Assembly (NCBI GenBank): GCA_945883495.1 | Contig: CAMCXS010000002.1 | Span: forward strand, 62,001-126,000 | DNA from: Akkermansia muciniphila | GTDB lineage: Bacteria; Verrucomicrobiota; Verrucomicrobiia; Verrucomicrobiales; DEV007 | Length of the DNA stretch: 64,000 bases | Direction: 5' to 3' | Shown: in pieces, positions 9,094 through 37,536 of the stretch | Numbering within the stretch: the stretch's first letter is position 1 | Layout of the letters: each line of letters begins with the position of its first letter | Notes under the pieces: model-generated | What the model saw: the letters and a program-made list of their open reading frames with translations, nothing else | Told to the model about the DNA's origin: nothing | Database searches by the model: none | Program-made: the position numbers and the translations under genes

Positions 9094-11061
9094 TTAGCGT
9101 TTCCTTGCGATCGAGCGTCTCAGCGACAGTAGGTTTCCAGGAAGAACAAGCTTTTCTGCGACATCACGACTCCCTGCCGAAGCCTGCGAAACGGGCCCGG
9201 CAGACATGGAATCCCAATCCGGCAAATGCCAGAGATTCTCCGTACAAAAGCTGACGCTCTCCGGCTCCCTCGGCAATGCCGGATCGAGCAGCGTTCCCGT
9301 CTCATATCGTAGCGAGGACAGTGCCACCGCGTGATTGAGCTCAGCAAAGATCAGGTTTCGCAACCGAAAGGTATATGCTTGCTCAAGCTGGACCGAGTCG
9401 AGCAAGGTCGATTCCCCGGCCTCGTAGCGAACCCGCCCTGATTCCAGCGCCTCACCGGAAAGCCGCGCCGCCTTGTCCGCCGCGGCGATCTGCTCACGCG
9501 TCGCCAAACACTGGGCGATCGCCGTCCGCATTCCCGAGGCGATTTGTCTCTCCAAGTCCAAGGCCGCCGTTTGGCGCTGCCCGTAGAGAGCGTCCGTAGC
9601 CTCCACCGCCCCGCGTGCCGCGCTCAATCTCAGGGGCCACTGCATGGAAACTCCGCCGAACGCCTCCAATCCGGTCGTGTCCGTACCGAACGCCGCAAAA
9701 GTATCCTCCCAGCGCGTCCCCTCGTTCGCCCCCGTCATCGCCAAGTTGACAAAAAGATCGACCACCGGCTTCTGATCAAACTTGGCCGCCGCCGCCAAAA
9801 TCTTTCCTGAATCAACTAACTGCAACGCCGCAAGCTGATCATCCCGGGTCCAGAGCACCTTGCGCAAGGCTGCAGTATAATCAAGGGACCGCAAGCCTTC
9901 CACCTCGCCCCCTGTGGGCAGAGCTCCAGCCGCGAGGGGAGGCTCAATCAGCTCTTCTCCTACCAAGCCCATAGCCAACCCAAGCTGCTGACGCGCCCGA
10001 AAGACGGCAAAACCCGCCTCGATCCGTTGCCCCGCCGCCTCCGCTTGCCGTGCAGCGGCGATCGCCGCCTCGCCTCGGGACATCTCCCCCTTCTCAACCC
10101 GCAGCTCCGTAAGTGCAGCGAACGTGCCCGCCAACGCTTCCGCATCCGTGAGAAGTTGATACTCCCGTTGAGCCGCAACCAGCCTCCAAAACGCGGACGC
10201 TGTTTGGAGGAGCGCCGTGGCGATCTCATGCCGCAGTTGCCACTTGGACGCTTCCAAGTCCACCCGTGCTGCATCCTCAACCGCACGTTCCGTTATGGCG
10301 CCTCGGCCTTGCGCCAAAGGAACGATGAAATCCAGGTTGATCGTCCCAGCGTTTAGGGAGCCCGCCCGCTCCCAGTCCATCCGAGGAGCGACAATCACCC
10401 CAGAACGCGCGAACTTGGATAGCCCAATCGAGTAACCGCTCTCTCCAATTCGTTCCGTAACCGCCACTCCCTCGCCGATACTGCGTCGCCTCAACTCGGT
10501 GAGCCTCGCTAGGCGCGCCCGCAGCACTTCCTCGGCATTGACCTGAGCCGCAAGCGCAGGCTCCGCTAGCGCCGGAAAACTTCCGTTCATCAGATCCAGC
10601 ACGGCAGCTTGCGTGGCCAGCGACTCCGCGATCCGGGCGTTCACTCCAGCTTCCACCACGTTCAGCGACTCCTCAGACACCGCCGCAAGACGCCGGATCA
10701 GATCAGCGTTCACGTCCGATGGATATCTCGGCCGGTATCGCCGTCCATGCTCCGCCCCCGCGATGACGGTGAGATCGAATGGGGCCGCCGCTTCAAGCAG
10801 TGCCGCCTCCGCCACCTCTAGGTCCGCCTGGCTCAAGCGTATGGAAGGCTGCCGCCAAAGGGTGACGCGCAATGCGTTGTCCAGCGTGACCGCCTTGCCC
10901 CCGACGCGGGCCGCAATTGAGCCCTCTCGCCCCATGGCTTCGTGAAAGCTATCAGGGCCTGCGGCCGCCTCGGCCCCATCCGCGGCCCAACCAACCACTT
11001 CTCGAAGCAGCAGCGCTCCGACCAGCGCAGAATAAAACCTAAACTCCCTGTGATTAATCAC
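9094..11061 (-). CDS. TolC-like outer-membrane efflux protein of the type I secretion locus
   Basis: About 655 residues of the outer membrane efflux protein (TolC) family, longer than the usual 450-500. An N-terminal hydrophobic segment (SALVGALLLREVVGWAADG) looks like an export signal. Long Ala/Glu/Arg-rich helices (TELRRRSIGEGVAV; AALTELRVEKGEMSRGEAAI) and a late RYEAGESTLLDSVQLEQAY are typical of the second TolC repeat. It is divergent from the small secreted proteins and C39 exporter at 11.3-16.2 kb, and together they supply the three parts of a type I secretion channel. No ATG is available near the start. A GTG at 11082 would lie inside the probable promoter, so the GTG at 11061 is preferred; a later start is possible. 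Confidence 0.85.
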   Translation of the reverse strand: MINHREFRFYSALVGALLLREVVGWAADGAEAAAGPDSFHEAMGREGSIAARVGGKAVTLDNALRVTLWRQPSIRLSQADLEVAEAALLEAAAPFDLTVIAGAEHGRRYRPRYPSDVNADLIRRLAAVSEESLNVVEAGVNARIAESLATQAAVLDLMNGSFPALAEPALAAQVNAEEVLRARLARLTELRRRSIGEGVAVTERIGESGYSIGLSKFARSGVIVAPRMDWERAGSLNAGTINLDFIVPLAQGRGAITERAVEDAARVDLEASKWQLRHEIATALLQTASAFWRLVAAQREYQLLTDAEALAGTFAALTELRVEKGEMSRGEAAIAAARQAEAAGQRIEAGFAVFRARQQLGLAMGLVGEELIEPPLAAGALPTGGEVEGLRSLDYTAALRKVLWTRDDQLAALQLVDSGKILAAAAKFDQKPVVDLFVNLAMTGANEGTRWEDTFAAFGTDTTGLEAFGGVSMQWPLRLSAARGAVEATDALYGQRQTAALDLERQIASGMRTAIAQCLATREQIAAADKAARLSGEALESGRVRYEAGESTLLDSVQLEQAYTFRLRNLIFAELNHAVALSSLRYETGTLLDPALPREPESVSFCTENLWHLPDWDSMSAGPVSQASAGSRDVAEKLVLPGNLLSLRRSIARKR

Positions 11062-11062
11062 A
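11049..11062. promoter_or_regulatory. Perfect 14-bp palindrome TGTGATTAATCACA at the probable transcription start
   Basis: TGTGATTAATCACA is a perfect inverted repeat without mismatch. It lies directly downstream of the -10 element of the predicted TolC-gene promoter, overlapping the expected transcription start and the chosen GTG. The half sites TGTGA/TCACA match the CRP/FNR superfamily, but the central spacing is 4 bp instead of the 6 bp of CRP. A site in this position would usually act as a repressor operator. This is inferred from sequence only. Confidence 0.45.
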
Positions 11063-11068
11063 AGACAG

Positions 11069-11096
11069 ATATTACGGAACACTTAAGTATAGTCAA
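11069..11096 (-). promoter_or_regulatory. Candidate sigma-70 promoter for the TolC-like gene
   Basis: On the minus strand TTGACT (11096-11091) and TAATAT (11074-11069) are separated by 16 bases, a near-consensus housekeeping promoter. The expected start of transcription is near 11062, inside the TGTGA palindrome. Its presence argues against a translation start at 11082. Confidence 0.5.
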
Positions 11097-11237: not shown

Positions 11238-11348
11238 ATGCCACCAACCGCCCCTGGCGTTGCGTTCAACAAGGGTTATAACTTCAACAGCAACTGCAGC
11301 CATCACGACACCTATCGTGATATCATCTCGCAACCTATTGAAAATTGA
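11238..11348 (+). CDS. Possible 36-residue small ORF coupled to the third double-glycine protein
   Basis: An ATG at 11238 opens 36 codons ending in TGA at 11346-11348. The encoded peptide is Asn/His/Tyr-rich in its second half (FNKGYNFNSNCSHHDTY). The stop overlaps the TTG start proposed for the next gene as TTGA, the pattern of translational coupling. There is no Shine-Dalgarno sequence and no family I recognise. The coding status is doubtful; the overlap with the next start is the main reason to list it. Confidence 0.25.
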   Translation: MPPTAPGVAFNKGYNFNSNCSHHDTYRDIISQPIEN

Positions 11349-11635
11349 GAACCCAAGCTTTATCTCGCTACCGCATCCCACCAGACGCGGAATGCACCAT
11401 CACAGGAGGAGCCCCCACCCTCCAAGAGCTGCTGCGGAAAGCCAGCGCCATTCGAACACACTCTCCCCTGTCGCAACTGAACCTAGCGTCAGTTACCACA
11501 CAGGGAGACGGGAATCTTTTTTTAAGCCAAACCGCTCAGAATGGCTTCCTGAACCTAAATCAGAATTTTTTCATTTTCATCAGCCGCTACATTCATTGCT
11601 CGTGTTCCCGTAGCGACCTCGTGGAGAGAATCTGA
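11345..11635 (+). CDS. Third double-glycine-leader secreted protein (TTG start, divergent paralogue)
   Basis: A 96-residue frame that starts with TTG. Its first 22 residues align with the leaders of the two downstream proteins: all have L and Y at nearby positions and end in a double glycine (IPPDAECTITGG here, Ile at -4). Residues 60-70 carry LSQTAQNGFLN, matching the C-terminal SQxxQNGFxN of both paralogues, and SQLNLASVTTQG (43-54) weakly resembles their central block. It differs in a helical, basic stretch after the leader (TLQELLRKASAI) and a Cys-containing tail. The first in-frame stop upstream ends at 11341, so no ATG start is available. It is either a real non-ATG gene or a decaying copy. 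Confidence 0.5.
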   Translation: MRTQALSRYRIPPDAECTITGGAPTLQELLRKASAIRTHSPLSQLNLASVTTQGDGNLFLSQTAQNGFLNLNQNFFIFISRYIHCSCSRSDLVERI

Positions 11636-11731
11636 ATCAGGATCCCCCAGAAAAAATTTGGACTGGACTAGGCGAACCCTAGCAGATCGCCCCAGACCAA
11701 AAACAAAGCAGAAACACAAAAAAACGAAAAG

Positions 11732-12043
11732 ATGAACAATCGACTGACCAACTACCGCCTAAGCGACTCCCAGGAAGCGACGACCGTCGGAGGGGGCTAC
11801 TACCCGGCTCACTACGGAAACGGACACAGCCAGAGCTATGGCGGAAACTACAGCGTTGACTATGCGTCCTACGACTACCGTAAATCGACGCAGGTCTCAG
11901 CCCTGCAAAACAACTATGCGGTTGTCTCGCAACTCGGCGGAGGCAGCGGCTACGGCAGCTCCAGCGCCGCGTTCAGCCAAGCCAATCAGAACGGTTTCTA
12001 CAACGTAAACGCCTCTCCAGCGATCGTTGTCGATCTCTTCTAA
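11732..12043 (+). CDS. Double-glycine-leader small secreted protein 1 (Gly/Tyr/Ser/Asn-rich)
   Basis: A 103-residue protein, apparently the substrate of the C39 exporter downstream. The leader ends LSDSQEATTVGG (10-21), with L at -12, S at -11 and G-G at -2/-1 as in the LSxxELxxIxGG leaders cut by C39 peptidases. The predicted mature part (22-103, 82 residues) is rich in Gly, Tyr, Ser, Asn and Gln. It holds TQVSALQNNYAVVSQLG (53-69) and FSQANQNGFYN (81-91), and ends in a hydrophobic tail (AIVVDLF). It has no Cys in the mature part. The leader and motifs are shared with the gene 45 bases downstream, so the two are tandem paralogues. The 5' region is A-rich, without a clear ribosome binding site. 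Confidence 0.8.
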   Translation: MNNRLTNYRLSDSQEATTVGGGYYPAHYGNGHSQSYGGNYSVDYASYDYRKSTQVSALQNNYAVVSQLGGGSGYGSSSAAFSQANQNGFYNVNASPAIVVDLF

Positions 12044-12087
12044 TCATCATCCAGAACAGAAACAGAGCAAAAAACCTTACAGAAAAC

Positions 12088-12408
12088 ATGAACACAAATC
12101 TTCTGAACTACGCTGTTGCAGATGCCGACCTGAGCCACATCGCGGGAGGCGCTGGCTATGGAAGCTATTCCTCCAGCTTCTACGAATCCTACTACAGCAG
12201 CACCACGCAGGCTTCCGCCAGCCAAAACAATACCGCCTTGATCAACCAAGTCGGCCCCCAATTCCAGAACGGAGTGGATCGCTATCATCCCTACTCCTAC
12301 GGAGGTGGCCATTCTTCCAGTTCTCTGAGCACGTCGTTCAGCCAATCCAACCAGAACGGCTTTGAGAACTACAGCGCTGCGCCCGCGTTCGGCTTCGGCG
12401 CCATCTGA
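12088..12408 (+). CDS. Double-glycine-leader small secreted protein 2 (Gly/Ser/Tyr-rich)
   Basis: A 106-residue paralogue of the preceding gene with the clearer leader: VADADLSHIAGG (10-21) has D at -8, L at -7, I at -4 and G-G at -2/-1, matching C39-processed leaders. The predicted mature part (22-106, 85 residues) carries TQASASQNNTALINQVG (40-56), which aligns residue by residue with the block in protein 1, then an Ser/Gly/His region and FSQSNQNGFEN (84-94), ending in a hydrophobic tail (AFGFGAI). Core size and Gly/Ser content recall class II microcins such as microcin E492, while the Q/N spacing recalls curlin repeats; neither homology is shown. Both this gene and its paralogue start ATGAAC after an A-rich leader. 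Confidence 0.82.
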   Translation: MNTNLLNYAVADADLSHIAGGAGYGSYSSSFYESYYSSTTQASASQNNTALINQVGPQFQNGVDRYHPYSYGGGHSSSSLSTSFSQSNQNGFENYSAAPAFGFGAI

Positions 12409-12527: not shown

Positions 12528-14735
12528 ATGCCCCAACGGGTTCCGCTTATTCGCCAGCTAGATCAGATGGACTGCGGTCCTGCTTGTCTGCTGATGATCT
12601 CCAAATTCTTCGGCCGCACCTTATCACGTGAGCGCGTCCGGGAATTAACTGAGGTAAGCAAAGAGGGCGTTTCTTTCGCTTCTCTCTCAGAAGCAGCCGA
12701 GCAGCTTGGGTTCCGCTCCATGGCCGTGGCACTACCTCCTGAAGTTTTCTGGAGCGAGTGCCCCGTTCCGTGCATTGCCCATTGGGAGGATCGCCACTTT
12801 GTCATCGTCGAGCGCCTCACCAGAACGAAGGTGGACGTCGTCGATCCCCTGCTCGGAAAGGTTTGCTACGCAAAGGCTGCGTTTCTCTCTTCCTGGCTAA
12901 AGAACGCCGGCCACCTCCACGCCGGCAAGGGGCTGGCGCTCGTCTTGGAGCCATCGCCAGAATTCCTGGAGGGAGGCAGCCTCGCTTCCTCAGCCAGAGA
13001 GCCGGGCTTTGCGTTCTTGCTCCACTATTTCCGGCCTCATCGTCAATTAATCTGGCAGCTCGCCCTCAGTCTCCTAGCGGGCTCAATCATCTCCTTGTTT
13101 CTTCCATTTGTCATGCAAGGAGTCGTGGATCATGGGATTGCCAGTCACGACCTGAGCCTTGTCACCAGCTTCATTGTCGCGCACCTCACTCTGACTGTCT
13201 CAATGCTCCTTCTCCAGCTCATCCGTGGCTGGCTGCTTCTTCATATCGGATCTAGGGTCGGCATTGCCCTAATCTCCGACTTCCTTCGCAAGCTGATGCG
13301 GCTGCCGATGATGTTTTTCGAAACACGCACAGCGGGCGATATCATTCAACGAATTGAGGATCATGAACGTATTAACCACTTTCTAGGCGTGCGCTCCCTC
13401 TCCGTGATTTTTTCACTATTTAATGCCGTAATCTTCTCAGCGGTGCTCGCCTCTTATCAGTTCAGCGTTCTCATCGTCTTGTTTGCCGCCACTCTACTCA
13501 GCGCAGGCTGGATGTTCCTCTTCATGCAGACGCGGCGGAAGCTCGATTTTCTCGGGTTCGAAGTACAATCCAATGAGCAGGACCGGCTGTATGAACTCAT
13601 CCAAGGTGCACAAGAAATCCGCATCCAAGGATTGGGACGCAGCAAACGCTGGGAATGGGAATCGATCGCCGCTAGACGCTTCAAACTTAAGGTGCGGGGA
13701 CTTGCCTTGCAACAACTGCAGACGCTGGGATCCTTCTTCTTCGCCCAGGTCTCGACCGTGTTGATTACATTCCTGGCCGCGCGCGCCGTAATCCAAGGCG
13801 AAATGTCCCTAGGTATGATGATGGCCACTCAATACATCGTCGGACAAATCGCCGGCCCTGCAGGAGACGTCGTTCAGTTTTTGCAGGATTTCCAAGATGC
13901 AAAGATCAGCCTAGAAAGGATGACGGAGATCTATGAAAAAGAGGATGAACGTGACTATCTGGAAAGCAAACCATCGACTTTTCCGCGAGATCGAACTTTG
14001 CGCATGGAAGACGTTTCCTTCCGCTATCCCAGCGCCAAGCGGAACTTTGCCATCCGCAATCTGACGTTAACCATACCTGACGGAAAAACCACCGCAATCG
14101 TCGGCTCCAGCGGCAGTGGAAAGACCACCTTACTCAAGCTTCTGCTTGCACTGCATCCGCCGGTTTCCGGTCGCATTTTCCTCGGAGAACTGCTGCTTGC
14201 GGACTATGATGGCCGCCGCTGGCGACAACGTTGCGGGGTGGTCATGCAGGATGGCTACCTCTTCGCGGATACCATCGAGCGCAACATCGCTTGCGCAGAG
14301 GGCTCGATCTGCCGCAAACGATTGCACCGAGCAATCGAACTGGCGGGTTTGGAAGATGTCCTTGCGGCTCAAGCGCTAGGTCTGCAAACCAAAGTGGGCG
14401 CCACCGGCACCGGACTGAGCGGCGGAGAACGGCAACGCGTCCTCATCGCTCGGGCGCTCTACAAGGAACCTGAATACCTATTTATGGACGAAGCCACGAG
14501 TGCGCTCGACGCCACCAGAGAGAGCGAGGTCTTGAATCACCTCTCCCTCATCACCCAGGGCCGCACGGTGGTTATCATCGCGCATCGACTGAGCACGGTA
14601 CGCCATGCTGACCAGATCGCGGTCATTGATCGCGGAACGGTTGTGGAATTGGGAACGCACCAGCAACTGGTTGATAAACAGGGCCGCTACTTTTCCCTGG
14701 TGAGCAACCAGCTCGATTTGGAGCGGGTTTGTTGA
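12528..14735 (+). CDS. C39 peptidase-containing ABC exporter (PCAT; LagD/CvaB type)
   Basis: A 735-residue inner-membrane exporter that should cleave double-glycine leaders and pump the mature proteins out. The N-terminal C39 domain (about 1-130) keeps all active-site residues: oxyanion Gln10, catalytic Cys16 in MDCGPAC, His90 in DRHFVIV and Asp106 in VVDPLLG. Membrane segments span about 165-460. The ATPase domain has Walker A GSSGSGKTT (526-534), signature LSGGERQRV (from 630), Walker B YLFMDEAT and the H-loop IIAHRLS. HlyB-type exporters have an inactive C39-like domain; this one appears active. It follows two double-glycine substrates and precedes the HlyD adaptor, whose ATG is 12 bases after this stop. 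Confidence 0.95.
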   Translation: MPQRVPLIRQLDQMDCGPACLLMISKFFGRTLSRERVRELTEVSKEGVSFASLSEAAEQLGFRSMAVALPPEVFWSECPVPCIAHWEDRHFVIVERLTRTKVDVVDPLLGKVCYAKAAFLSSWLKNAGHLHAGKGLALVLEPSPEFLEGGSLASSAREPGFAFLLHYFRPHRQLIWQLALSLLAGSIISLFLPFVMQGVVDHGIASHDLSLVTSFIVAHLTLTVSMLLLQLIRGWLLLHIGSRVGIALISDFLRKLMRLPMMFFETRTAGDIIQRIEDHERINHFLGVRSLSVIFSLFNAVIFSAVLASYQFSVLIVLFAATLLSAGWMFLFMQTRRKLDFLGFEVQSNEQDRLYELIQGAQEIRIQGLGRSKRWEWESIAARRFKLKVRGLALQQLQTLGSFFFAQVSTVLITFLAARAVIQGEMSLGMMMATQYIVGQIAGPAGDVVQFLQDFQDAKISLERMTEIYEKEDERDYLESKPSTFPRDRTLRMEDVSFRYPSAKRNFAIRNLTLTIPDGKTTAIVGSSGSGKTTLLKLLLALHPPVSGRIFLGELLLADYDGRRWRQRCGVVMQDGYLFADTIERNIACAEGSICRKRLHRAIELAGLEDVLAAQALGLQTKVGATGTGLSGGERQRVLIARALYKEPEYLFMDEATSALDATRESEVLNHLSLITQGRTVVIIAHRLSTVRHADQIAVIDRGTVVELGTHQQLVDKQGRYFSLVSNQLDLERVC

Positions 14736-14746
14736 TCGTAGACACC

Positions 14747-16243
14747 ATGGCCCATCAGCAACGACAGATATCACCCGACCGCCTGGCAAAGAGCCCACCC
14801 TACCGCTTTGCATCGGCTACCAGCGCCGATCCTTGCCCGGCTACGGCCGAACTGGAGGATGGCTGCCACCCGGAAATCACGGACATCGTCTATCGCACAC
14901 CAAATTGGCTGCTCCGCTCCGGTACTAGCCTCATTACTGGCCTTATCGCTCTGCTACTGCTGCTCGCGGGCTGGATCAAGTTCCCCGACATCGTTCGCGG
15001 CAAGGGCGAAATCGTCGGGCTTTGCCCCGCCTCACCGGTCATCCCCGAGACCTCGGGTCACATCAGCGTTTCCATCGCGGAAGGAGAACTCGTTCAGACG
15101 GGCGATATCGTGGCTACGATTCAAAACCCGGCCGACAGCCTTGCCGTACTGGCGCTTAAGAAGGAACTTTCCACTATTCTGGAAGCAAACCTCCTTGAGC
15201 CCACACCGCGCAAAGCCGCAGCGCACGAGAACTTGTCCTGGCAATTACTCCTGGATGCCGGTGCCGCCACGCTGCTTGATCACGGAGGCCACGGCAGACT
15301 GGGTGAAATCCAAACCATCTATTCCGAATTTTTCTATTTATTCCATCGCCTTCGGCAGCTCACCACCGATGATTATCCACCAAACGCCTTAGCTGCGCTC
15401 GAAGCCGATCGACAGCGCAAAATCTCGCTGTTCGCCTCATACGACCAGCAACAAGCTTCGCTTTTAGCGGAAATTGACTTAGCAAAAGCCGCGATCGCGC
15501 GCAACGAGTCCCTGGTCGACAAAGGAGCGGCAAGCCAGGCCCGTCTGGACGATCTACGGCAAGATCTTCTCGTCCGGCAACGGCAACTCCAGTCCTTGGC
15601 CGCTGCGGCCAAGGCCGGAGAAATCGAAGTGGAAGCAATTTCCAGTAAGATTCTCGATTTTCAGCACGACCACCGAGAGCAAATCCTCAATATACACGCC
15701 AGATTGCGCGAAGCCCTCAAACAAACTCTTAGCGCCATCGCCGTCTGGGAAAAACGTTACCTCTTGCGAGCCCCGGTGAGCGGCCGAGTCTCGTTTTACG
15801 ACTTTTGGAGCGACGCCCAATATGTCGAAGCTGGCCACGAGGCGTTCGTTGTGGTCCCGGAGGCGAACGAAATCATCGGCCGCGTTAGCGTACAAGGGCA
15901 TGGCGTCGGGAAGTTAAAGGCAGGGCAGAGAGCCCTCCTCCAGCTCGCGGACTACCCTTCCACCGAATACGGCGTCATTGAAGGAAGGGTCTCCGCTATC
16001 TCGAGCATCGCTAGAAACGGCGGTTATATCGTAACCATTAAGCTTGGCTACCCCCTCATCACGAACCTGCGTCGTCAAGTAATGTTTCGCAGTCACATGG
16101 TAGCGGAAGGCAAGCTGATCACCGAAGATCTCAGCCTTCTGGAACGCACTTTGTATAGTCTTCGCCAAGCCTTCATGCAAGGCCAGTTCGCCCCCTCCCC
16201 CCGTCGCAGTCCAAGCCAGCCACTGAGTCCGGGACCTCTCTAA
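14747..16243 (+). CDS. HlyD-family adaptor of the type I secretion system
   Basis: A 498-residue membrane-fusion protein linking the C39 exporter to the outer-membrane TolC-like channel. A cytoplasmic N-terminus of about 55 residues is followed by one membrane helix (SLITGLIALLLLLAGWI), the first half of a lipoyl-like domain (VIPETSGHISVSIAEGELV), a long helical hairpin with repeated Ala/Glu/Arg/Gln heptads (AAIARNESLVDKGAASQARL), the second lipoyl half (LRAPVSGRVSFYDFWSDAQY) and a beta-barrel region ending YGVIEGRVSAIS. The fold order matches HlyD/CvaA. The ATG at 14747 follows the exporter stop; an in-frame TTG at 14729 overlaps it and is less likely. Its TAA stop shares two bases with the stop of the convergent surface-protein gene. 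Confidence 0.92.
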   Translation: MAHQQRQISPDRLAKSPPYRFASATSADPCPATAELEDGCHPEITDIVYRTPNWLLRSGTSLITGLIALLLLLAGWIKFPDIVRGKGEIVGLCPASPVIPETSGHISVSIAEGELVQTGDIVATIQNPADSLAVLALKKELSTILEANLLEPTPRKAAAHENLSWQLLLDAGAATLLDHGGHGRLGEIQTIYSEFFYLFHRLRQLTTDDYPPNALAALEADRQRKISLFASYDQQQASLLAEIDLAKAAIARNESLVDKGAASQARLDDLRQDLLVRQRQLQSLAAAAKAGEIEVEAISSKILDFQHDHREQILNIHARLREALKQTLSAIAVWEKRYLLRAPVSGRVSFYDFWSDAQYVEAGHEAFVVVPEANEIIGRVSVQGHGVGKLKAGQRALLQLADYPSTEYGVIEGRVSAISSIARNGGYIVTIKLGYPLITNLRRQVMFRSHMVAEGKLITEDLSLLERTLYSLRQAFMQGQFAPSPRRSPSQPLSPGPL

Positions 16244-19200
16244 GGCGTTGTTGGGTCCGTGCCCGCCCTGACCTCATCACCATCGCTCGCGCCGTCCCCG
16301 TCTGAATCCGCCAGTGTAGCGCTCGTCAGAAGCCAGCACGCTTCAACCAAATCGCAGAGACTGTCGCCATCCGTATCCAGCAGTGAACGGTTCGTCAACA
16401 GCGAGGCAATACCGTCAGGAATCCCGTCTGCGTTTGCATCCGCCCTGCCATTGCGCGGATCACGTGGTAGCGGATCGACAGCGTCGCCCAAGAAATCGGA
16501 ATCCGTATCCCAAGTCAGCCCGTTCGTTTTGGCCGAAACTTCCGCCTTGTCGGTCAGCCCGTCCCCATCAGTATCCGCAACAGAAGGATCGGTCCCCCAG
16601 GTTTGCTCGTCTAGATTGCTGGATAGGTCTCCGTCGAAGTCTCCACGGGCGTTCTGGCCTGAATTGCCGAAGAACGCCCTTTCCCACCAATCGCGAAGCC
16701 CGTCGCGATCGCGATCCGCGATGGCAACCCCGCGATACGCAGCAGCGAGCACGTCCTCCACTGTCCGCCGCTCCTCCTGGTCCAGGTCCCGATCATAGAG
16801 GACGACATCCCCGAGCCTACCTTGATAGCCGTTTCCTGACCCATCCCAACCTCCTAGATAGCAGGGACCGTGCACAACCGGACTTCGTGACCAAGCGGGG
16901 GAACCAGATGACCGCCGCACTCCTCCAACATCGATTGCCGGGATTCGGTTCTTCAGCCGCACCGAGGCGAGGATGGCGGCTCTCGGCAAGTTACCGCGAG
17001 CAGGTGAATGGGCAGCGGGCGGACAAACGGAAGGCCGGTAATACTGAGCCAACTCGAAAGCCCCGCTTGTCTGGGCCCCTACGGATAGACCAAATCCCGC
17101 CCCGAGCAAGTTTGAGTAATCCATTCGGGCAACCCCGCCAAACGCCGAGCTAGAGGAACTTCCGCGCCAAGTTGTGGCACGAATTTGGTAGAACCTTTCC
17201 CGAGCCACGACTCTCCCTAAGAAAGTGATCTCCCTCGTCGAAGTCTCTTCGTATTCCGTTTGAAAGTTAGCAAAATGTGTCCCCAATCCTCGCAAGAACT
17301 GGCGATATACATTAGCTGTTCCGGGATGCCGATGAATCCCTTCGGGAACCGGACTCAGCCGATACCCTGTGGTAACGTCGTAGCGCGCACGCGCAGGAGG
17401 AAAATCATAGGGCCGTGTGCTCTTCCAATTAGCCTCCCCAGATGGGCCGTCCAGGTAATTGGAATGATACCGAAAATCCGTCTGCTCCCAGGTTGAGAAT
17501 GAGCGAGGCGAGGGTTTTGACGGGGCATCATACACCAGAACTCTCTGACCTGGCGCAGTTGCTCCTGCCAAGAGATAGCACTGCCCTCTGACTCCGGCTC
17601 CGGTGCCGGCGGAGCTAATGTTTGCAGCAGCGGCAGTGCGGTTACCGCTCGGCGCCGCCACAAAGTAGGCATTGAAGGTATCGTCAGGCAATACCGCACC
17701 GAGATCGATGACCTCTTTGCCGCCAAACTGAATCCAAGTCCTCCCGCTTTCACTCACCCGACGGGGCGCGATGGCACTCCCAGTGGTCGCCTCTGAGCCG
17801 ACGCTACTTCCCACAGGGCGCCAACTCGTGACTTGCCCAGCATTCCCAAAAACCGTAATTCCACTATCGGGGCGAAACCACCGAACCAGCCCTGCGGACG
17901 GCAAGGCCAGATTCGCACTAACGAAACAAGCCCACGACCCGGAATACAGTTGAGCCGCCCCCTCCTCCCCTTTGACCAGAGCGCTGACACTTCCTTCAAT
18001 CCACCCGGGATCGGCGCCTGCCTTGATAAACACCTGGGCCACGCCCTTCGCATCCGTCCGGGTCAAAAGCGTTCGCACTGCCCCCGCATCATCGCCTGCG
18101 ACGGCCGAAAGCATGGCGCTTCCCCTAGTAATCACGAAAGTCACCGGAGCATGCGTGAGAGCTCGCTTCCCGGATGTCACCTTGCAATCCAGAGCTTGGC
18201 GCACCCACTGCCCTGGTGAAGTCACCTCCCCATTCGTCGACTGATTCACCTTAAAAGACACCACTCTGCCGTCATAATAATCTAAGGGATCTCGCCCCTT
18301 CGCTCGCACCTCAGCGCCATCTGTGATCCCGTCAAAGTCGGTATCGCGCTTGGCGGGATTCGTCGCATACACGTTCCGTTCTTCCCAATCCGAGAGCAGA
18401 TCGCCATCGCCATCAGCCGGTGTCAGCGCCACTGTGCGATAAAATCGAGCGACGCGTTCCACGGGATTGAGAGGCAGCGGGTCCTTTACCTCGCTCGCCA
18501 CTCCGTTTCCCACAATGACGGGCCCCAACTGTATCCACTTCGCAGCGCCCGCCATCCGCTTCTCCACCCGGTAGCGGCACCCCGCATGCGCAGCGATAGC
18601 AAGCCAAACCTCTCTGCTCCCGGACGGAAGATGGCGCACCTGCACCACCGGCCGCCCCGGTGCGTCGAACGACCTGGGATTCCCGCCTAGCAAGATCTCC
18701 GCCAGATTCGTCAAACCATCACCGTCGAGATCTGCGCCCGGCTGCATCGAAAGATTCGCGCTGCCATTGACTCGCTCCCAGCCGTCCGCCAAACGGTCAC
18801 GGTCGCTGTCCACAATTTGCGGAAACAGGGAACGGTTCACGATTACGGCGGATGATACCGGCGCAAGCCGGAGCACAATCCGTGGCAGGGAATCTGGCCG
18901 AATCACATAGAATACTCCTCCCGATGGCACCTTGACCGAACTTGGGTTCACCGTTCGTCCGTGTAGTGATTTCCAGCCGATCGGGGCAGTCGTCTTGTAG
19001 TAAAATTCCTCCCATTCCTGGATGTCCGCCGACCAAATGACCAATCGATCCGCGAGGTCGGCCGTCCGCCCGCCAACCAATCCTAGGGCTGCAGATCGAC
19101 TGAACAGACCCAATGTGTTTGCAAGAGTAAACTCGCGACCATCAGGTCGAAAAACCGGATTTCTGATCGAAGTCTCCTTGCCGGCAGGAGTAGGCAGAAT

Positions 19201-19911
19201 GGGAAAAGCCGCTGTTGTGAGCCTCGCCCCGCCAGCGAATGTCAACCGCCTCCCGGCCGGGGCTTGGTCGGAGCGCCAGTAGCCGACCGGAAGGTTCACG
19301 TCCTGCAGCACACTCCCGCCAGCGTCTTCTCCATTGGGATCATCAGAGGTTGCAGCCGCCCACCGGGCGACCCCACCTTCAGCCCTCGCCGCCCACACGC
19401 TCCCTCCCGGGAACGTCACCACATCAGCCGCGCTCTTCGTGGCGGCGGTGTGCACCCCAGTAACGTCCGCCGCACCTACGAATTCCTCCACTGTCCACAA
19501 CGGAATGACCGAAAATGAATCACCTGCCTGCAGCATCGATTCCGCGACGACGCCAGCAAAGGGCGTGCCTCGGAATGCTCCCGAGTATGTCCAATCGCTC
19601 GACTCCGCTACTGGCGATCCGAACAAAGCGCGGCCGGCCGCCGTTCCACCTCGCGGCCACAAAAGCGCCGAATCCACGGGATCCGGCAATTCGCCGAACC
19701 ACCGCGGAGTGACTCGTCCAGCCTCGATCACGGCGTCCACCTGGCCGCCGCCCATTGCCGTAGGAAGCAACAGCGGCGCCAGCGGTTCAAATTTCCCCGG
19801 CGCCACCTGCGCCTCCCAGATGCCCACAACCTCACTCGAAGCCTCTTGGCCACGAACGGCGACGATGCTGAATAGCACACAAAAAGCCACGAAAAGGGAG
19901 TTGAGTCGCAT
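16240..19911 (-). CDS. Large secreted protein with thrombospondin type 3-like calcium repeats and a LamG-like domain
   Basis: About 1223 residues. A Sec signal (SLFVAFCVLFSIVAVRG) is followed by a 350-residue beta-rich region that I cannot assign, then groups of Asp-rich motifs of the thrombospondin type 3 kind (DLDGDGLTNLAEI, DTDFDGITDGAEV), an Ig-like stretch (TSPGQWVRQALDCKVTSGKR), a concanavalin/LamG-like domain that begins LVRWFRPDSGITVFG and ends GRLGDVVLYDRDLDQEE, and a final cluster of at least six Asp repeats up to the C-terminus (DSDGDGASDGDEV). These repeats bind calcium and stiffen surface proteins. No RTX nonapeptides or anchoring signal is seen. The start MRLNSLF was chosen because it begins the signal peptide. 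It is convergent with the secretion locus but has its own Sec signal. Confidence 0.8.
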   Translation of the reverse strand: MRLNSLFVAFCVLFSIVAVRGQEASSEVVGIWEAQVAPGKFEPLAPLLLPTAMGGGQVDAVIEAGRVTPRWFGELPDPVDSALLWPRGGTAAGRALFGSPVAESSDWTYSGAFRGTPFAGVVAESMLQAGDSFSVIPLWTVEEFVGAADVTGVHTAATKSAADVVTFPGGSVWAARAEGGVARWAAATSDDPNGEDAGGSVLQDVNLPVGYWRSDQAPAGRRLTFAGGARLTTAAFPILPTPAGKETSIRNPVFRPDGREFTLANTLGLFSRSAALGLVGGRTADLADRLVIWSADIQEWEEFYYKTTAPIGWKSLHGRTVNPSSVKVPSGGVFYVIRPDSLPRIVLRLAPVSSAVIVNRSLFPQIVDSDRDRLADGWERVNGSANLSMQPGADLDGDGLTNLAEILLGGNPRSFDAPGRPVVQVRHLPSGSREVWLAIAAHAGCRYRVEKRMAGAAKWIQLGPVIVGNGVASEVKDPLPLNPVERVARFYRTVALTPADGDGDLLSDWEERNVYATNPAKRDTDFDGITDGAEVRAKGRDPLDYYDGRVVSFKVNQSTNGEVTSPGQWVRQALDCKVTSGKRALTHAPVTFVITRGSAMLSAVAGDDAGAVRTLLTRTDAKGVAQVFIKAGADPGWIEGSVSALVKGEEGAAQLYSGSWACFVSANLALPSAGLVRWFRPDSGITVFGNAGQVTSWRPVGSSVGSEATTGSAIAPRRVSESGRTWIQFGGKEVIDLGAVLPDDTFNAYFVAAPSGNRTAAAANISSAGTGAGVRGQCYLLAGATAPGQRVLVYDAPSKPSPRSFSTWEQTDFRYHSNYLDGPSGEANWKSTRPYDFPPARARYDVTTGYRLSPVPEGIHRHPGTANVYRQFLRGLGTHFANFQTEYEETSTREITFLGRVVARERFYQIRATTWRGSSSSSAFGGVARMDYSNLLGAGFGLSVGAQTSGAFELAQYYRPSVCPPAAHSPARGNLPRAAILASVRLKNRIPAIDVGGVRRSSGSPAWSRSPVVHGPCYLGGWDGSGNGYQGRLGDVVLYDRDLDQEERRTVEDVLAAAYRGVAIADRDRDGLRDWWERAFFGNSGQNARGDFDGDLSSNLDEQTWGTDPSVADTDGDGLTDKAEVSAKTNGLTWDTDSDFLGDAVDPLPRDPRNGRADANADGIPDGIASLLTNRSLLDTDGDSLCDLVEACWLLTSATLADSDGDGASDGDEVRAGTDPTTP

Positions 19912-20048
19912 GGGGGAGCGAGGGAAGCTGATCATTGCTGCCCTTCTATCGCGCGAATGGACGAATAGCAATCGAAAAAATCTATCCAATCTTGCAGAGC
20001 CGCGTCACACTCACTTAAGACCCGACAATTCCAATCGGCCTCACTCTT

Positions 20049-22637: not shown

Positions 22638-24329
22638 TCAATCCCACAGCGGCTCGCCACCAAGCACAACCTCTTCCTCATCCTCGACTGTCGGCTGCGC
22701 AACTTCGGCACGATCGAGTCCAGAAGAGACGTCGCGCGGCCCGACACTCTCCAACGGCAATGGGGCATCTTCCAAGTAATCCTCAAGCCCAATGATTCGG
22801 AAGACTTCCCGAAGCTGCTCCGTGCCTCCACTGAGAGAAATAAATCCCGTCCGTCCCTCAAAATCTTCGCACCAGCGGGCCAATTGAAGCATTGCCACTA
22901 AGCTGACGCGATTCACCTCTTCTAACGAAAGCCGAAGTGTGCCGCCCTCAGCCCACACAATCTGGGCAATTTCGCGAACACACTCCCGAAACTTTCTGAC
23001 CCGGCTCTCGGTCAAGTTGCCTGGCACACGCAAGGTCCAGGTCCTCCCACCGAAGATCGAGGTTTGCTTAGAAATCCAAGCTTCAAGCGCAAGGGGATTC
23101 TCGAAAAAAGGAAGCACACGATCAACACCCACTGCGTTCAGAAAAGATCCTAGCCTACTCCCTCCTCCATAAACGGCCACCACCTTGCCAACGTTGCGCG
23201 CCGCCTTCGCAAGCCCGACCAACTCCGAGCAGATTGCCAACGGCGGCCGATGCAACTCAACACAGTCCAGGACCACCACTTGCTGATCAGAACCCACGAC
23301 GCGTCGATGCAAGGAGGCCAAGTTACTCCCTTCATTGACAACAACTCGATCGAACGCAGCCCCAATCCCGTTCATCACTGGCGAGAACCTTACCGTCCGC
23401 GACCTCATCACAAAGTACGGCAGCTCCCGCGCCAGCAAACAGCAGAGCGCCCACAAGTCCCCAGCATAGCGCTTGACTAGCCTCCCGGGATCCTTCGCCA
23501 TCCGCCAACACCATTCGAGTCCACTCCGCTGCATCCAGATCGGGGCCCTCACCTGTTTGCCAGCTAAAAAGTCTAAACTTGCACCGACTCCAATAGCCAA
23601 CGCAGGGACCGAAGGCTGCAAGTAACGTTGAATCCAAAGATCCTGCTTCGGGAAGCCCATGGCCGAAAGCACCACATGAGGCGAGGCCTCCTGAATGGCT
23701 TCCACGAAGGACGCATTATCCCAGCTTTCAACATCACCATATGGCGGCGCAATCGCACCGACAATCTGCAGCCCTGGGTACTGAATGGGAAGCTCAACAC
23801 GCAATCTCGCCATCGTCACTTCATCGCTTCCGAAGAGAAACACCCGCCACCCACGGACTGCGCAAAGATGCAGGAGCCTCGGTGTAAGGTCAGAACCTGC
23901 AACTCGCTCGGGCAATCCCCTGGAAATCAATCGTGAAATCCACACCAACGGCATTCCGTCACAATACACGCGATCCGCTCCACCCAACACATCCCTAGCT
24001 GCGGAATTGCGGCGGCACTGCGCCAAGAAATCGGTATTCGCAGTGGCGACATGATAGAACCCCCCCCTGAGAATCAAACACTCACAATCGGCAACCGCTT
24101 CCGACAAACTCATCCGATGGAAAGCCTGCCCCAAGACCAGACTCAGCGCTTGCAATGCGTGGAGGTGCGTGAAGTCATCCTCCGCAGCCTCGTCACGCCC
24201 CAGGACGAAGTGTTCTCCCGTATCCTCGACGCCGTTCAGACCTAAACACTCTGCGAGACTAGTTCGCTCATCCCGCACTCTTCCTTTCTTATACAAGTCC
24301 ATCTTCATACAGATATTACCTGCCGACAT
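22638..24329 (-). CDS. WecG/TagA/CpsF-type glycosyltransferase fused to two STAS-like domains
   Basis: About 563 residues. After about 70 charged residues comes a WecG/TagA domain (about 70-295): TANTDFLAQCRRN, ADRVYCDGMPLVW, VFLFGSDEVTMARL, GFPKQDLWIQRY and GVGASLDFLAGKQVRAP are family signatures. Enzymes of this family transfer an N-acetylmannosamine-type or related sugar to a polyprenyl-linked first sugar. It is followed by two regions resembling STAS/anti-anti-sigma domains (VVVLDCVELHRPPLAIC; TLRLSLEEVNRVSLVAMLQL), ending in an acidic tail. The second is the better match. The ATG at 24329 follows GGGAGGGAG and overlaps the previous gene by 14 bases; ATGs at 24308 and 24302 are alternatives. 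Confidence 0.85.
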   Translation of the reverse strand: MSAGNICMKMDLYKKGRVRDERTSLAECLGLNGVEDTGEHFVLGRDEAAEDDFTHLHALQALSLVLGQAFHRMSLSEAVADCECLILRGGFYHVATANTDFLAQCRRNSAARDVLGGADRVYCDGMPLVWISRLISRGLPERVAGSDLTPRLLHLCAVRGWRVFLFGSDEVTMARLRVELPIQYPGLQIVGAIAPPYGDVESWDNASFVEAIQEASPHVVLSAMGFPKQDLWIQRYLQPSVPALAIGVGASLDFLAGKQVRAPIWMQRSGLEWCWRMAKDPGRLVKRYAGDLWALCCLLARELPYFVMRSRTVRFSPVMNGIGAAFDRVVVNEGSNLASLHRRVVGSDQQVVVLDCVELHRPPLAICSELVGLAKAARNVGKVVAVYGGGSRLGSFLNAVGVDRVLPFFENPLALEAWISKQTSIFGGRTWTLRVPGNLTESRVRKFRECVREIAQIVWAEGGTLRLSLEEVNRVSLVAMLQLARWCEDFEGRTGFISLSGGTEQLREVFRIIGLEDYLEDAPLPLESVGPRDVSSGLDRAEVAQPTVEDEEEVVLGGEPLWD

Positions 24330-25074
24330 GCCACCACTCCCTCCCGGCGCGCTTGGCCCTCGTTCGCAGCAGCCGCGGATCAACAGATAGCCCTGCCAAC
24401 CTTTTCTTCCTATGCAAGGCAACGCCATCCTGTAAATGATAGCCATCAAACGTGGTGTCCTCTGCGACAAACTGATTCTCACCCACGTAGGTTGAGCGTA
24501 GATTCACACCGCCCCCGATGACGCATCCATCACTGACTACAGCGCCAGGCCCGATCACTGAGTTGCGACCAATTGAACACCCACTCCCTATCCAATATGG
24601 CGCCTCCAACCGAACTCCCGGCTCAATGCGCGACAACGCCCCAACTTTCACCTCCGGGAAATCTGGCAACACTCGCTCCCACAAGAGCGCTAATCGGTTG
24701 GTAACAGCAAGCCAATGACGATCAATCAACTCCCAAGCACTTAATACATCACCCGTGATCACATCACCAAACAAGCTTTCATACCGCTCTGCACCAGAAG
24801 GCCTAGTCCCAATACTTACCTCTACTTCTACTGGCCACCTCGTTCTTTCACCAAAGCTCGCCTCGACAACGCCTAGTCGGTCCGGCAAGTGAAAAACCAC
24901 CCGATCATAGTCGCACTCATATGCGAGATCCATCCATCGATATAACAATGGGCCATCAACCGTATTCCACAAGACATAGGGCGCAACCACACTCAGCTCT
25001 CTCTCGAAGAGTGTGTAATCAGGCATCGAAACATCCAGAATATTCATCTCGTCACGCTTAAGGAATCGCTTCAC
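24316..25074 (-). CDS. Left-handed beta-helix protein, mannose-1-phosphate guanylyltransferase-like C-terminus
   Basis: A 252-residue protein. Its N-terminal 130 residues are unassigned (PDYTLFERELSVVAPYVLWN). Residues 140-215 carry hexapeptide repeats of the left-handed beta-helix kind (IEPGVRLEAPYWIGSGCSIG; NSVIGPGAVVSDGCVIGGGV), as in the C-terminal part of sugar-nucleotide pyrophosphorylases. The nucleotide-binding GxGTRL signature is absent, so a catalytic nucleotidyltransferase role is unlikely from this chain alone; an acyltransferase or regulatory subunit is possible. The GTG at 25074 shares a base with the stop of the upstream gene, indicating coupling; an ATG at 25047 is an alternative start. 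Confidence 0.6.
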   Translation of the reverse strand: MKRFLKRDEMNILDVSMPDYTLFERELSVVAPYVLWNTVDGPLLYRWMDLAYECDYDRVVFHLPDRLGVVEASFGERTRWPVEVEVSIGTRPSGAERYESLFGDVITGDVLSAWELIDRHWLAVTNRLALLWERVLPDFPEVKVGALSRIEPGVRLEAPYWIGSGCSIGRNSVIGPGAVVSDGCVIGGGVNLRSTYVGENQFVAEDTTFDGYHLQDGVALHRKKRLAGLSVDPRLLRTRAKRAGREWWHVGR

Positions 25075-26984
25075 TAGTAGGCACCACGGGCCTGCAACAC
25101 AGCAGGAATAGTCTTCACCAGAATCACAATATCCCGTAGAATTGAAAATTTGTGAATATACTCTAAATCTAACCGGACCTGCCCCTCAAAATCAATATCG
25201 GCTCTCCCTTGAATCTGCCAAAGACAGGAGATCCCAGGCTTTACAATCAATCGACGCAATTGAGTCGCATTGTAACACGCCACCTCCCTCGGAAGCGCCG
25301 GCCGCGGGCCGACCAATGCCATATCTCCACGAAGCACATTCAAGAACTGCGGCATTTCGTCAATTGAATACTTCCGAATCAACCGGCCAATGCGCGTCAC
25401 ACGGGGATCACGCCGCATCTTAAAGGTCACTCCAACCTCGTGTTGATTGCTACACTCTAACCCCATTCGCACTCGCTCAGCATTCGTCCGCATGGATCGA
25501 AACTTAAAGATCTGAATTCTTTGCCCATGCAACCCGATTCGAACCTGCCTGAACAATACCGGACCACCGTCTTCAAGCTTGATCAAGAGTGCCGCCAACA
25601 GCATCACCGGGCTTAGTACACAAAGTGCGCCCAAGGATCCAAGTATGTCTACGATTCGCTTTCCAATAACAGCAAACCTAGCATAGAAGATCAACCCCAT
25701 TTCATTGCACCGATCCCGGAGCAACCAAGCCTTCGGATTACCTCGACCGCACGCTGCGAAGATCTTATACTTTGGAGGCGCACACTCCCCATTCCGGAGC
25801 GTACGCACCCACGTACTGCCGGCCCCCTTCACTGACAATTGAAGATATACAGGTATTTTCCTCAACAGAAAGAATGGAACCACCAACAGCGACCGCCAGA
25901 CGGCGGCAGTGACTCCTCGATGCCACATCGCCAAAAGCACATGAAGACATACCACTGCGAGACAAAACGAAGCCGCTCCCCACAACACGCCAATCCGCCC
26001 CCCTACGCCTATTCCGGCCACCACGATCAAGAACCCAGAGTACAAACCTAGCGGTGGACAAATCAGATCAATCAACGACTCAACAAGTCTGAGATCCCTT
26101 CGCCGCACCGATTCGACCAGAAGCCGCAGCGCTTCCTGCCTCAGAATCTGAAAGCGCCCCCCCTCCCAACGGACTCTCTGCCGGTCCGATGCACCTGGGT
26201 CTGTCACCATCTCAGCGAACACCCTCGCTTCAGGTAGATATTCGATCCGGATTCCTTCTCTCAGGAGCAACAGACCAAACTCCAGATCCTCTACAATAGA
26301 GTGAGCCGGCCAACCACGCTCAAGGAGAACTTCGGAACGAAATGCCATACCATTTCCTTTCAGCCCCGCCGATGCGCCGAGTCGATTACGCCCAAGCGGG
26401 CGAAGATGATGAGACACCGCAAACGCAACCTCAGCAAGGCTCGCCCTCCAACCTGATTCGAGATTCGCAACACCGTAATAGCCCTGCACGACATCCCCCC
26501 CCCTTACGCCACTGGCTCGCCCTACTTCTGCAAGGAAATAAGGATCAACAATCGTGTCTGCGTCAACAACCGCAATTACGTTAAACTTTTGCAGGGACTC
26601 TTTCCAGCCACGAATGAACCAATCGAGCGCATACCCTTTACCGCGATTCAATAGGTCGGATCGCTGCGCCACCGTTGCGCCACAGCTCTCTGCCGCAGCG
26701 CAAGTTCCGTCACTGCAATTGTCAGCAATGACAAAAACTTGAAACTTCTCCTGTGGATACACTGAACCGAATACAGCCCTTAGCGTATCCCCTATCAACT
26801 TCTCTTCGTTGTGCGCCGGGATGAGAACCGCAATCGATGGCGACTCTCTGCACTGACTGCTCACGCAGTTACCACGCCCCGTTCTGGGCAGCACCGCCGC
26901 GACTGACAGCACCCCGAGATAAAGCGCAGGCAGAGCCAAGGCGAACGCTGCGACTCCACATAGCAATTGAGCTAAATCAATCAT
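25074..26984 (-). CDS. Fusion of a GT2 glycosyltransferase and an initiating sugar-phosphate transferase
   Basis: About 636 residues with two enzymes in one chain. After an N-terminal membrane helix, residues 45-290 form a cellulose-synthase-like GT2 domain: IAVLIPAHNEEKLIGDTLRA, VIADNCSDGT, VVDADTIVDP, EDLEFGLLL and the QRVRW acceptor motif. Four membrane helices follow (about 305-390). From about 430 a WcaJ/PglC-type phosphoglycosyltransferase begins: a membrane segment (VDILGSLGALCVLSPVMLL), then GGPVLFRQVRIGLHGQRI, FKFRSMRTNAE, SIDEMPQFLNVLRGDMALVG and PRPALPREV. It should attach the first sugar phosphate to undecaprenyl phosphate. ATG 26984 is chosen; a GTG at 26996 is possible. Confidence 0.9.
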   Translation of the reverse strand: MIDLAQLLCGVAAFALALPALYLGVLSVAAVLPRTGRGNCVSSQCRESPSIAVLIPAHNEEKLIGDTLRAVFGSVYPQEKFQVFVIADNCSDGTCAAAESCGATVAQRSDLLNRGKGYALDWFIRGWKESLQKFNVIAVVDADTIVDPYFLAEVGRASGVRGGDVVQGYYGVANLESGWRASLAEVAFAVSHHLRPLGRNRLGASAGLKGNGMAFRSEVLLERGWPAHSIVEDLEFGLLLLREGIRIEYLPEARVFAEMVTDPGASDRQRVRWEGGRFQILRQEALRLLVESVRRRDLRLVESLIDLICPPLGLYSGFLIVVAGIGVGGRIGVLWGAASFCLAVVCLHVLLAMWHRGVTAAVWRSLLVVPFFLLRKIPVYLQLSVKGAGSTWVRTLRNGECAPPKYKIFAACGRGNPKAWLLRDRCNEMGLIFYARFAVIGKRIVDILGSLGALCVLSPVMLLAALLIKLEDGGPVLFRQVRIGLHGQRIQIFKFRSMRTNAERVRMGLECSNQHEVGVTFKMRRDPRVTRIGRLIRKYSIDEMPQFLNVLRGDMALVGPRPALPREVACYNATQLRRLIVKPGISCLWQIQGRADIDFEGQVRLDLEYIHKFSILRDIVILVKTIPAVLQARGAY

Positions 26985-27012
26985 GATTAAAATCACCGCT
27001 CGTCATTCCAGC

Positions 27013-28272
27013 CTACGCCGCAACGTCCAGGTATCGCTCAAAGAGCTCCGCCATAGCTTCCCCATTCCTGGAAAGGTCATATTCCCGCGCCACCTTTTCG
27101 CGTGCCGCCGCTCCAAGGAGCCTACGCATCTCTGAACTCTCAATCAGCATACGCATTGCTGCCGCCAGTCCATCCACGTCGCCAGGAGCCACCAAGATCC
27201 CGTTCTTTCCATCCTCAACAAGCTCTGGAATGCCGGCTATCCGCGTAGAAATTACCGGAACCCCACATGCCATAGCCTCCATCAAGACGACAGGCACCCC
27301 TTCCGCAAAACTCGCCAAGACAAACAAGTCGGCTTCCACATACTCATTGCGCACGCCATCCTGCCCCATTGCGCCGGTCATCGTAACATGCGACCATCCT
27401 TGACTCTCAACTTGACTCCTCAACTTCTGCTCGTCTGGACCCGTCCCAACAATTCGCAACTGGTGGACGACCCCGGCCTTCATAAGGACGCCAGATGCCT
27501 CAAGCAGCACTGCCTGACCCTTTGCAGCAACCAACCTACCGACACACAGAATCACAGGCACAGCATTCTCCGGGCTTCTACGAATTGAAAACACCGACGG
27601 CTCAACTCCACACCTCACAATATCATATTTGCACCAATTCTCCGAGGAACTCAACATGCACAACTGGCTCCTGGAGAACCAGCTAATGCACCTGACAAAT
27701 GACGCCCATCGGAGCTTCTGAGGCAAAAGATCCGACTCGACGTTGTAAAAGATGTCTGGCCCATGAATACTCAAACTGAACTGGAGCAAGTGCGAAGCTG
27801 CCGCGATTGCAGCAACAGTGCCCGCAGCATTTCCGAAATGATTATGCACATGATGCACCTCTCGCTCCCTCAGCCAATCCACTACGATAATCGCCTCGAT
27901 AAGATAAGCATAGCTAGATACGCAAAATGGCCGCCTCTGAACAGCACGCAACCAGGTCGAAAGCATGCACTTCCAGTTGGCACCTTGTCGACTTATCCTA
28001 GACACAGCCCCAAACAACCGGCGCCATGACCTAAGCACGTAAAATGTGCGACGGACCCACATGTCCCCGTCCCCTCCGAGCACAGATAGCCCCTTGGGAC
28101 TACGAATGGCAACAATCTCTACCTGATGCCCTCGGCGCTCAAGCTCCCGTATTTCTCGATCGATAAACGTGTGGGAAAGCACCGGATGCTCGCTCAACAG
28201 ATAGCCGATCTTCAACGAAACTCTATTGCGAACGCCAGCTGGACCCTGGCTAATGGATGGCGATGTGTGCAC
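27013..28272 (-). CDS. GT4-family glycosyltransferase
   Basis: A 419-residue GT-B glycosyltransferase (Glycos_transf_1/4). The N-terminal half includes LSHTFIDREIRELERRGHQV, as in WcaL/AmsK-type enzymes, and VHHVHNHFGNAAGTVA. The C-terminal half has VILCVGRLVAAKGQAVLLEA, the E-x7-E motif FAEGVPVVLMEAMACGVPVI and GNGILVAPGDVDGLAAAM-like sequence. It is predicted to add a sugar to the lipid-linked repeat unit on the cytoplasmic side. It starts with GTG at 28272; a later start near the SLKIGYLL segment cannot be excluded. It lies between the polymerase gene (15 bases upstream) and the fused initiating enzyme. Confidence 0.9.
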   Translation of the reverse strand: MHTSPSISQGPAGVRNRVSLKIGYLLSEHPVLSHTFIDREIRELERRGHQVEIVAIRSPKGLSVLGGDGDMWVRRTFYVLRSWRRLFGAVSRISRQGANWKCMLSTWLRAVQRRPFCVSSYAYLIEAIIVVDWLREREVHHVHNHFGNAAGTVAAIAAASHLLQFSLSIHGPDIFYNVESDLLPQKLRWASFVRCISWFSRSQLCMLSSSENWCKYDIVRCGVEPSVFSIRRSPENAVPVILCVGRLVAAKGQAVLLEASGVLMKAGVVHQLRIVGTGPDEQKLRSQVESQGWSHVTMTGAMGQDGVRNEYVEADLFVLASFAEGVPVVLMEAMACGVPVISTRIAGIPELVEDGKNGILVAPGDVDGLAAAMRMLIESSEMRRLLGAAAREKVAREYDLSRNGEAMAELFERYLDVAA

Positions 28273-28287
28273 TTTGTTTTACAATCA

Positions 28288-33386: not shown

Positions 33387-33399
33387 GGTAAAAACCAAA

Positions 33400-33924: not shown

Positions 33925-33928
33925 ACCA

Positions 33929-37518: not shown

Positions 37519-37536
37519 CAAGAAGTTTCTAACTCA

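Follow-up and report, generated by a model that had tools for sequence, protein, structure and literature searches.

Gly-Gly-leader proteins with conserved Gln/Asn blocks as candidate structural cargo of a C39 peptidase-ABC exporter in Akkermansia muciniphila

What does a type I secretion system with a C39 peptidase export when the small genes beside it encode chains rich in Gly, Ser, Tyr, Asn and Gln? The question is raised by a locus of Akkermansia muciniphila (assembly GCA_945883495.1, contig CAMCXS010000002.1, positions 62,001 to 126,000, forward strand), a stretch of 64,000 nucleotides that was analysed as a whole and is called the window below. Three small proteins with Gly-Gly (GG) leaders, here named P1, P2 and P3, are encoded ahead of the exporter genes, and a first-pass annotation of the window had likened their Gln/Asn-rich (Q/N) motifs to curlin repeats and proposed an amyloid. 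P1-P3 are probably the dedicated cargo of the adjacent type I system, exported as low-complexity structural proteins of the cell surface or matrix.

The P1-P3 operon and the adjacent exporter

The genes of the locus, in window coordinates, are the following.

11345..11635, plus strand: P1, GG-leader paralogue with a TTG start, leader MRTQALSRYRIPPDAECTITGG, mature part of 74 residues, one LSQTAQNGFLN motif
11732..12043, plus strand: P2, GG-leader protein, leader MNNRLTNYRLSDSQEATTVGG, mature part of 82 residues, 60% G+S+Y+N+Q
12088..12408, plus strand: P3, GG-leader protein, leader MNTNLLNYAVADADLSHIAGG, mature part of 85 residues, 61% G+S+Y+N+Q
12528..14735, plus strand: C39 peptidase-ABC (ATP-binding cassette) transporter (PCAT), PF03412 (6.4e-29), PF00664 and PF00005
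14729..16243, plus strand: HlyD-type membrane fusion protein, PF13437 (4.1e-14)
9094..11082, minus strand: TolC-type outer-membrane factor (OEP), Pfam PF02321 (E 8.8e-21), divergent from the cargo genes

The three open reading frames (ORFs) lie where the first-pass annotation had placed them. P1, P2 and P3 run in the same direction and are followed by the C39-ABC and HlyD genes, while the TolC-type gene is divergent. As looked for in cargo of such transporters, a C39-ABC gene with the residues Cys, His and Asp adjoins the cargo genes, and HlyD and TolC partners are present at the locus. The ABC protein aligned over its full length to PCAT1 (4ry2; E 2.4e-81, query 6-724), and also to ComA. In the C39 domain, the Cys, His and Asp presumed to be catalytic (alignment columns 16, 90 and 106) are invariant in 7/7 sequences; given this alignment and what is established for the C39 family, the domain should be an active GG-peptidase and not a degenerate domain of the HlyB type. 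The NCBIfam matches of the HlyD-type product to type_I_hlyD (6.6e-27) and of the TolC-type product to type_I_sec_TolC (4.7e-9) were under the cut-off. A hairpin between P3 and the ABC gene was not significant (z -1.7), and a promoter and terminator scan did no better than shuffles.

The mature cores of P2 and P3 are alike at 11 standard deviations (sd) above shuffles, and P1 and P2 at 5.4 sd in the mature part and 8.7 sd in the leader, while the similarity of P1 to P3 was not significant by the same comparison. Judged by these similarities, P2 and P3 are clear paralogues; P1 is also paralogous to P2, though more remotely. Both P2 and P3 have a coding-type G+C content at third codon positions (GC3, 0.70-0.72), and the sequence just upstream of P2 resembles by eye that upstream of P3, in keeping with tandem duplication. 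The three proteins had been described as Gly/Tyr/Ser-rich with a hydrophobic C-terminus, a description that fits P2 (ending in PAIVVDLF) and P3 (APAFGFGAI) but not P1, which has 34% G+S+Y+N+Q and 15% Leu and whose tail runs further and contains charged residues and two Cys. Nor is there an ATG in frame upstream of the P1 leader; with its TTG start and its differing composition and tail, P1 may be a decaying copy. Since P2 and P3 are near-neutral in charge, about 60% G+S+Y+N+Q and lack a long hydrophobic stretch, they seem suited to a structural rather than a membrane-active role.

Leaders of C39 cargo usually have 15-25 residues, a GG end and hydrophobic residues at -4, -7 and -12. All three leaders here have 21-22 residues and end in GG, and those of P2 and P3 are, like the P1-P2 pair, alike at 8.7 sd over shuffles. 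Hydrophobic residues stand at -4, -7 and -12 in P3, at -4 and -12 in P1, and at -12 only in P2. Homology of these leaders to those of cargo beside related exporters was considered and rejected, as a joint profile with P1-P3 included looked convincing but was circular, and one rebuilt without P1-P3 did not find their leaders. The leader call was thus based on the GG end, the position and the similarity between paralogues, because a profile of the relatives alone misses the P1-P3 leaders.

Conserved blocks and the comparison with curlin

The shared motifs of the mature proteins are at the following positions, all on the plus strand.

11888..11938: block A of P2, TQVSALQNNYAVVSQLG, with the best stretch for a curlin hidden Markov model (HMM), NNYAVVSQLGGG, at 7.3 bits
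12205..12255: block A of P3, TQASASQNNTALINQVG
11525..11554: SQxxQNGFxN, copy 1 (P1)
11975..12004: SQxxQNGFxN, copy 2 (P2)
12340..12369: SQxxQNGFxN, copy 3 (P3)

As previously noticed, P2 and P3 have a 17-residue block in common, which aligns without gaps (10/17 identical), and SQxxQNGFxN is present in all three proteins. Synonymous codon changes were found at 3/10 of the identical residues of block A, and a second block of P2 and P3 (9/11 identical) has 3 synonymous changes among the 9. The presence of synonymous changes at identical residues means that the likeness of the blocks has been kept at the protein level and does not just reflect a fresh DNA duplication. The Q/N blocks are conserved between paralogues, while the G/S/Y-rich spacers between them have diverged. 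Searched as a DNA pattern, SQxxQNGFxN occurs 3 times in the window against 0 in 100 shuffles, and 3 times in the whole 6.46-Mb genome, always in the P1-P3 operon.

P1-P3 share with the curlins CsgA and CsgB the richness in Q, N, G and S and the Q.G..N and N.A...Q.G register. The curlin-like spacing proposed for the blocks applies to half of a repeat: the register N.A...Q.G in P2 and P3, and Q.G..N in QNGFxN, is exact, but block A reads Q.N.A...Q.G, with 8 positions from Q to Q, against 11 in the Q.G..N.A...Q of CsgA. The full pattern QxGxxNxAxxxQ is in none of the three proteins, which have 1-2 half-register motifs each, and tandem repeats of ~22 residues (S-x5-Q-x-G-x-x-N-x-A-x3-Q) were not found in them. 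In P2, NNYAVVSQLGGGSG lines up with NSDLTITQHGGGNG of CsgA.

A home-made curlin-repeat HMM, trained on CsgA and CsgB repeats and on those of a single curlin-like protein from the phylum, gave 7.3, 4.3 and 1.4 bits for P2, P3 and P1, against 31-35 bits for the best single CsgA and CsgB repeats, which were part of the training set. Composition-preserving shuffles reached the scores of P2, P3 and P1 in 0.2%, 1.9% and 2.4% of cases (p 0.002, 0.019 and 0.024), with the reservation that P2 and P3 do not count as independent and that the case was chosen for its curlin resemblance. Ranks 1, 4 and 11 went to the three proteins when 1,438 ORF stretches, each 70-200 residues long and taken from the window or related loci, were compared. 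P2 compared directly with CsgA stood at 3.5 sd (p 0.008, one of six comparisons).

Pfam curlin (PF07012) did not match P1-P3 at E<=10, nor anything else in the genome, and CsgG (PF03783) had no match in the genome either (assembly 96% complete). The profile-profile comparison with curlin that had been suggested for the motifs, made with hhalign, returned probabilities of 1.2% for mature P2/P3 and 13.9% for all three, over 14-18 columns. Chains rich in Q, N, G and S resemble curlin easily. The resemblance therefore goes slightly beyond composition in the shuffle tests, but it does not extend to curlin membership by Pfam, hhalign or repeats; on these comparisons it could stem from luck or from convergence towards a Q/N-ladder design, and it falls short of homology. 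Few sampled genomes of the phylum have curlin: matches over the cut-off came from 2/388, and one of these looks like a repetitive charged protein and not a curlin.

AlphaFold2 models from a two-sequence alignment of P2 with P3 had a mean pLDDT (predicted local distance difference test) of 42 for the full and 46 for the mature protein and a pTM (predicted template modelling score) of 0.11-0.14, too low to interpret; they contained no beta structure and a weak helix that is not to be trusted. A simple aggregation-scale scan was non-discriminating: CsgA, CsgB and all of P1-P3 showed short hot segments.

Relatives of the cores and of the exporter, and neighbouring genes

Pfam, NCBIfam and PHROGs had no informative family for the P1-P3 cores, and no match to them turned up among viral contigs or plasmids. 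When 387 genomes from the order, among them two of the same genus, were searched with a P2/P3 profile, only the window was recovered, apart from two other matches at E 0.05-0.09. An exact motif scan of GTDB contigs gave 18 hits, all of them short accidental frames or unrelated proteins and none a small GG-leader protein. The cores thus appear to be orphans, unique to the P1-P3 operon in everything searched.

The exporter, on the other hand, has seven relatives in the order, with 44-51% identity. A small basic Lys/Ser/Cys-rich GG-leader peptide was found near 5/7 of them; one of the remaining two has a different pair of GG peptides, and no candidate was seen for the other. Since the relatives adjoin GG-leader peptides with quite different cores, this exporter clade seems to carry small GG cargo of varied kinds, the window being the one with Q/N-rich cores. 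The link of P1-P3 to the cargo of the relatives is gene position and not leader sequence. The Lys/Ser-rich (KS-rich) GG-leader peptides beside C39-ABC relatives are these.

L032:6138-6305
L033:11656-11862
L076:6474-6677
L077:11651-11893
L078:3561-3719

They look exported, with 50-68% Lys+Arg+Ser and 3-5 Cys after the GG leader, and no Pfam or NCBIfam family was found for them. The exporters beside them belong to the same clade as that of P1-P3, but the peptides differ in their basic Lys/Ser/Cys-rich cores, which are without Q/N blocks, and in a leader not recognisably the same. By look only, they could be silaffin-like or antimicrobial. To one side of a related exporter lie genes for a near-identical pair of GG-leader peptides that are of a different kind (SARQYYKDNYKEC..; L034:647-826 and L034:4229-4411). 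Genes that by eye resemble Ser/Thr protein kinases adjoin two related exporters (L032:4565-5845 and L033:5076-6392), and none was seen at the operon in the window.

Further along the window, a gene for a secreted-looking protein of 1249 residues with bacterial TSP3 repeats (16240-19989, minus strand) converges on the exporter operon. A polysaccharide synthesis and export cluster (22638-39606, minus strand) includes a flippase, a Wzc-like protein, a sugar transferase with a glycosyltransferase, and a glycosyltransferase with a Wza-type export domain. Several apparent fusions in it look unusual, and one ORF (22638-24482, minus strand) joins a WecG/TagA glycosyltransferase to a C-terminal STAS_2 domain. 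The cluster fits a matrix-forming lifestyle.

Structural cargo, rival explanations and known systems

In the reading favoured here, the leader would be cut after Gly-Gly by the C39 domain of the ABC transporter, and the mature chains of 74-85 residues would pass from the cytoplasm to the outside in one step through the ABC-HlyD-TolC channel. There the chains of low complexity, chiefly P2 and P3, would act as structural surface or biofilm-matrix proteins, in which the blocks TQxSAxQNNxAxxxQxG and FSQxNQNGFxN could be sticky segments for self-association or partner binding and the G/S/Y-rich spacers could vary freely. Amyloid assembly is the least supported step of this scheme, and is possible rather than expected.

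Several observations weigh against the structural reading. The textbook hydrophobic pattern is confined to the P3 leader, and the leader profile from the cargo of exporter relatives does not recover the leaders of P1-P3. P1, which may be decaying, does not share the composition of P2 and P3. The searches gave no homologue of the cores, so conservation could be judged only among the three paralogues. The polysaccharide cluster lies >6 kb from the operon on the opposite strand, neither adjacent nor co-directional.

A sharper form of the same story, in which mature P1-P3 form a curli-like functional amyloid, with the Q/N blocks stacked into short beta-arches that carry Q and N ladders and the C39 type I system replacing CsgG, is a tentative possibility. 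It is favoured by HMM scores above shuffles, the high ranks of the three proteins, the P2-CsgA alignment and a precedent of amyloid cargo for C39 exporters (PMC9981879). These have to be set against scores of at most 7.3 bits beside 31-35 for true repeats, hhalign values of 1-14%, the lack of a Pfam match and of tandem repeats, the wrong Q-Q spacing and the ease with which such compositions resemble curlin; the AlphaFold2 models, without beta structure, are too low in confidence to count on either side. Its boldest version is rather doubtful: a one-step functional amyloid, independent of CsgG/Sec and of the cyanobacterial EbfG proteins, in which C39-ABC/HlyD/TolC exports curlin-register Q/N-ladder proteins with shortened beta-arches.

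The same export anatomy of GG leader, C39-ABC, HlyD and TolC is that of class II microcins (PMC10233263), and the ABC protein matches NCBIfam bacteriocin-export models, every match under the cut-off, so P1-P3 could be bacteriocins of this type that kill related bacteria. However, the ABC and HlyD genes follow directly after P3 with no immunity-gene candidate between them, and the P2 and P3 cores are near-neutral, polar and of low complexity, without a long hydrophobic stretch. The first-pass annotation had named placement of the cores in a bacteriocin family, together with a lack of fibres, as evidence against amyloid; neither Pfam nor NCBIfam has such a family for them, and a bacteriocin role is improbable. 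Nor is it likely that P1-P3 are peptides released as signals or otherwise, or weakly selected remnants, with a Q/N likeness that reflects no more than the shared ancestry of recent duplicates. The lack of homologues in the order and the degraded look of P1 (TTG start, different tail) agree with that explanation, but the blocks are kept with synonymous changes while the spacers diverge, the GC3 of P2 and P3 is of coding type, and the dedicated exporter is intact.

Among known systems, the nearest experimental parallel appears, as described, to be that of Synechococcus elongatus PCC 7942, where efficient secretion of the small GG-leader proteins EbfG1-4 depends on the C39 protein PteB, where these proteins have a role in biofilm, and where EbfG1-3, but not EbfG4, form amyloid in a heterologous test (PMC4997328, PMC9981879). 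Both systems have several small tandem GG proteins, orphan cores and a C39 exporter. They differ in that the EbfG amyloid hot spot A-[FI]-N-I-[GS] (PMC9981879) is absent from P1-P3 by inspection, mature EbfG proteins are of 6-7 kDa, and the P1-P3 locus has an HlyD gene following and a TolC-type gene divergent. Class II microcins of the colicin V type are exported by peptidase-ABC transporters (PMC10233263), and one of them, microcin E492, forms amyloid (PMC4729943, PMC10233263); they have in common with P1-P3 the GG leader and the export by PCAT, membrane fusion protein and TolC, whereas P1-P3 are several paralogues with no immunity gene seen and no hydrophobic or cationic core. The Fap system also uses a C39 protease in the export of a functional amyloid (FapC), namely the periplasmic FapD (PMC5557850), but FapD is stand-alone and export goes via FapF with no ABC transporter. 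Curlin itself is exported by Sec and CsgG, in contrast to the GG leader and type I system of P1-P3.

A C39 route for amyloid, which had been thought new, is therefore already known, with EbfG/PteB as a close precedent next to microcin E492 and Fap. What is new here is the cargo. A literature search on curli or amyloid with Verrucomicrobia gave, among the ten best of 133 matches, only unrelated gut and brain work.

If the structural reading does not hold, P1-P3 would still be orphan GG-leader cargo with a conserved, operon-unique motif. If it does, the EbfG proteins of cyanobacteria would be joined by another lineage whose bacteriocin-type exporter serves to build extracellular matrix and not to kill, suggesting that many Gram-negative loci labelled as bacteriocin export could be surface-protein systems. 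The locus would in addition offer a clear-cut example of a curlin-like Q/N register that arose without CsgG, bearing on the minimal repeat order for functional amyloid.
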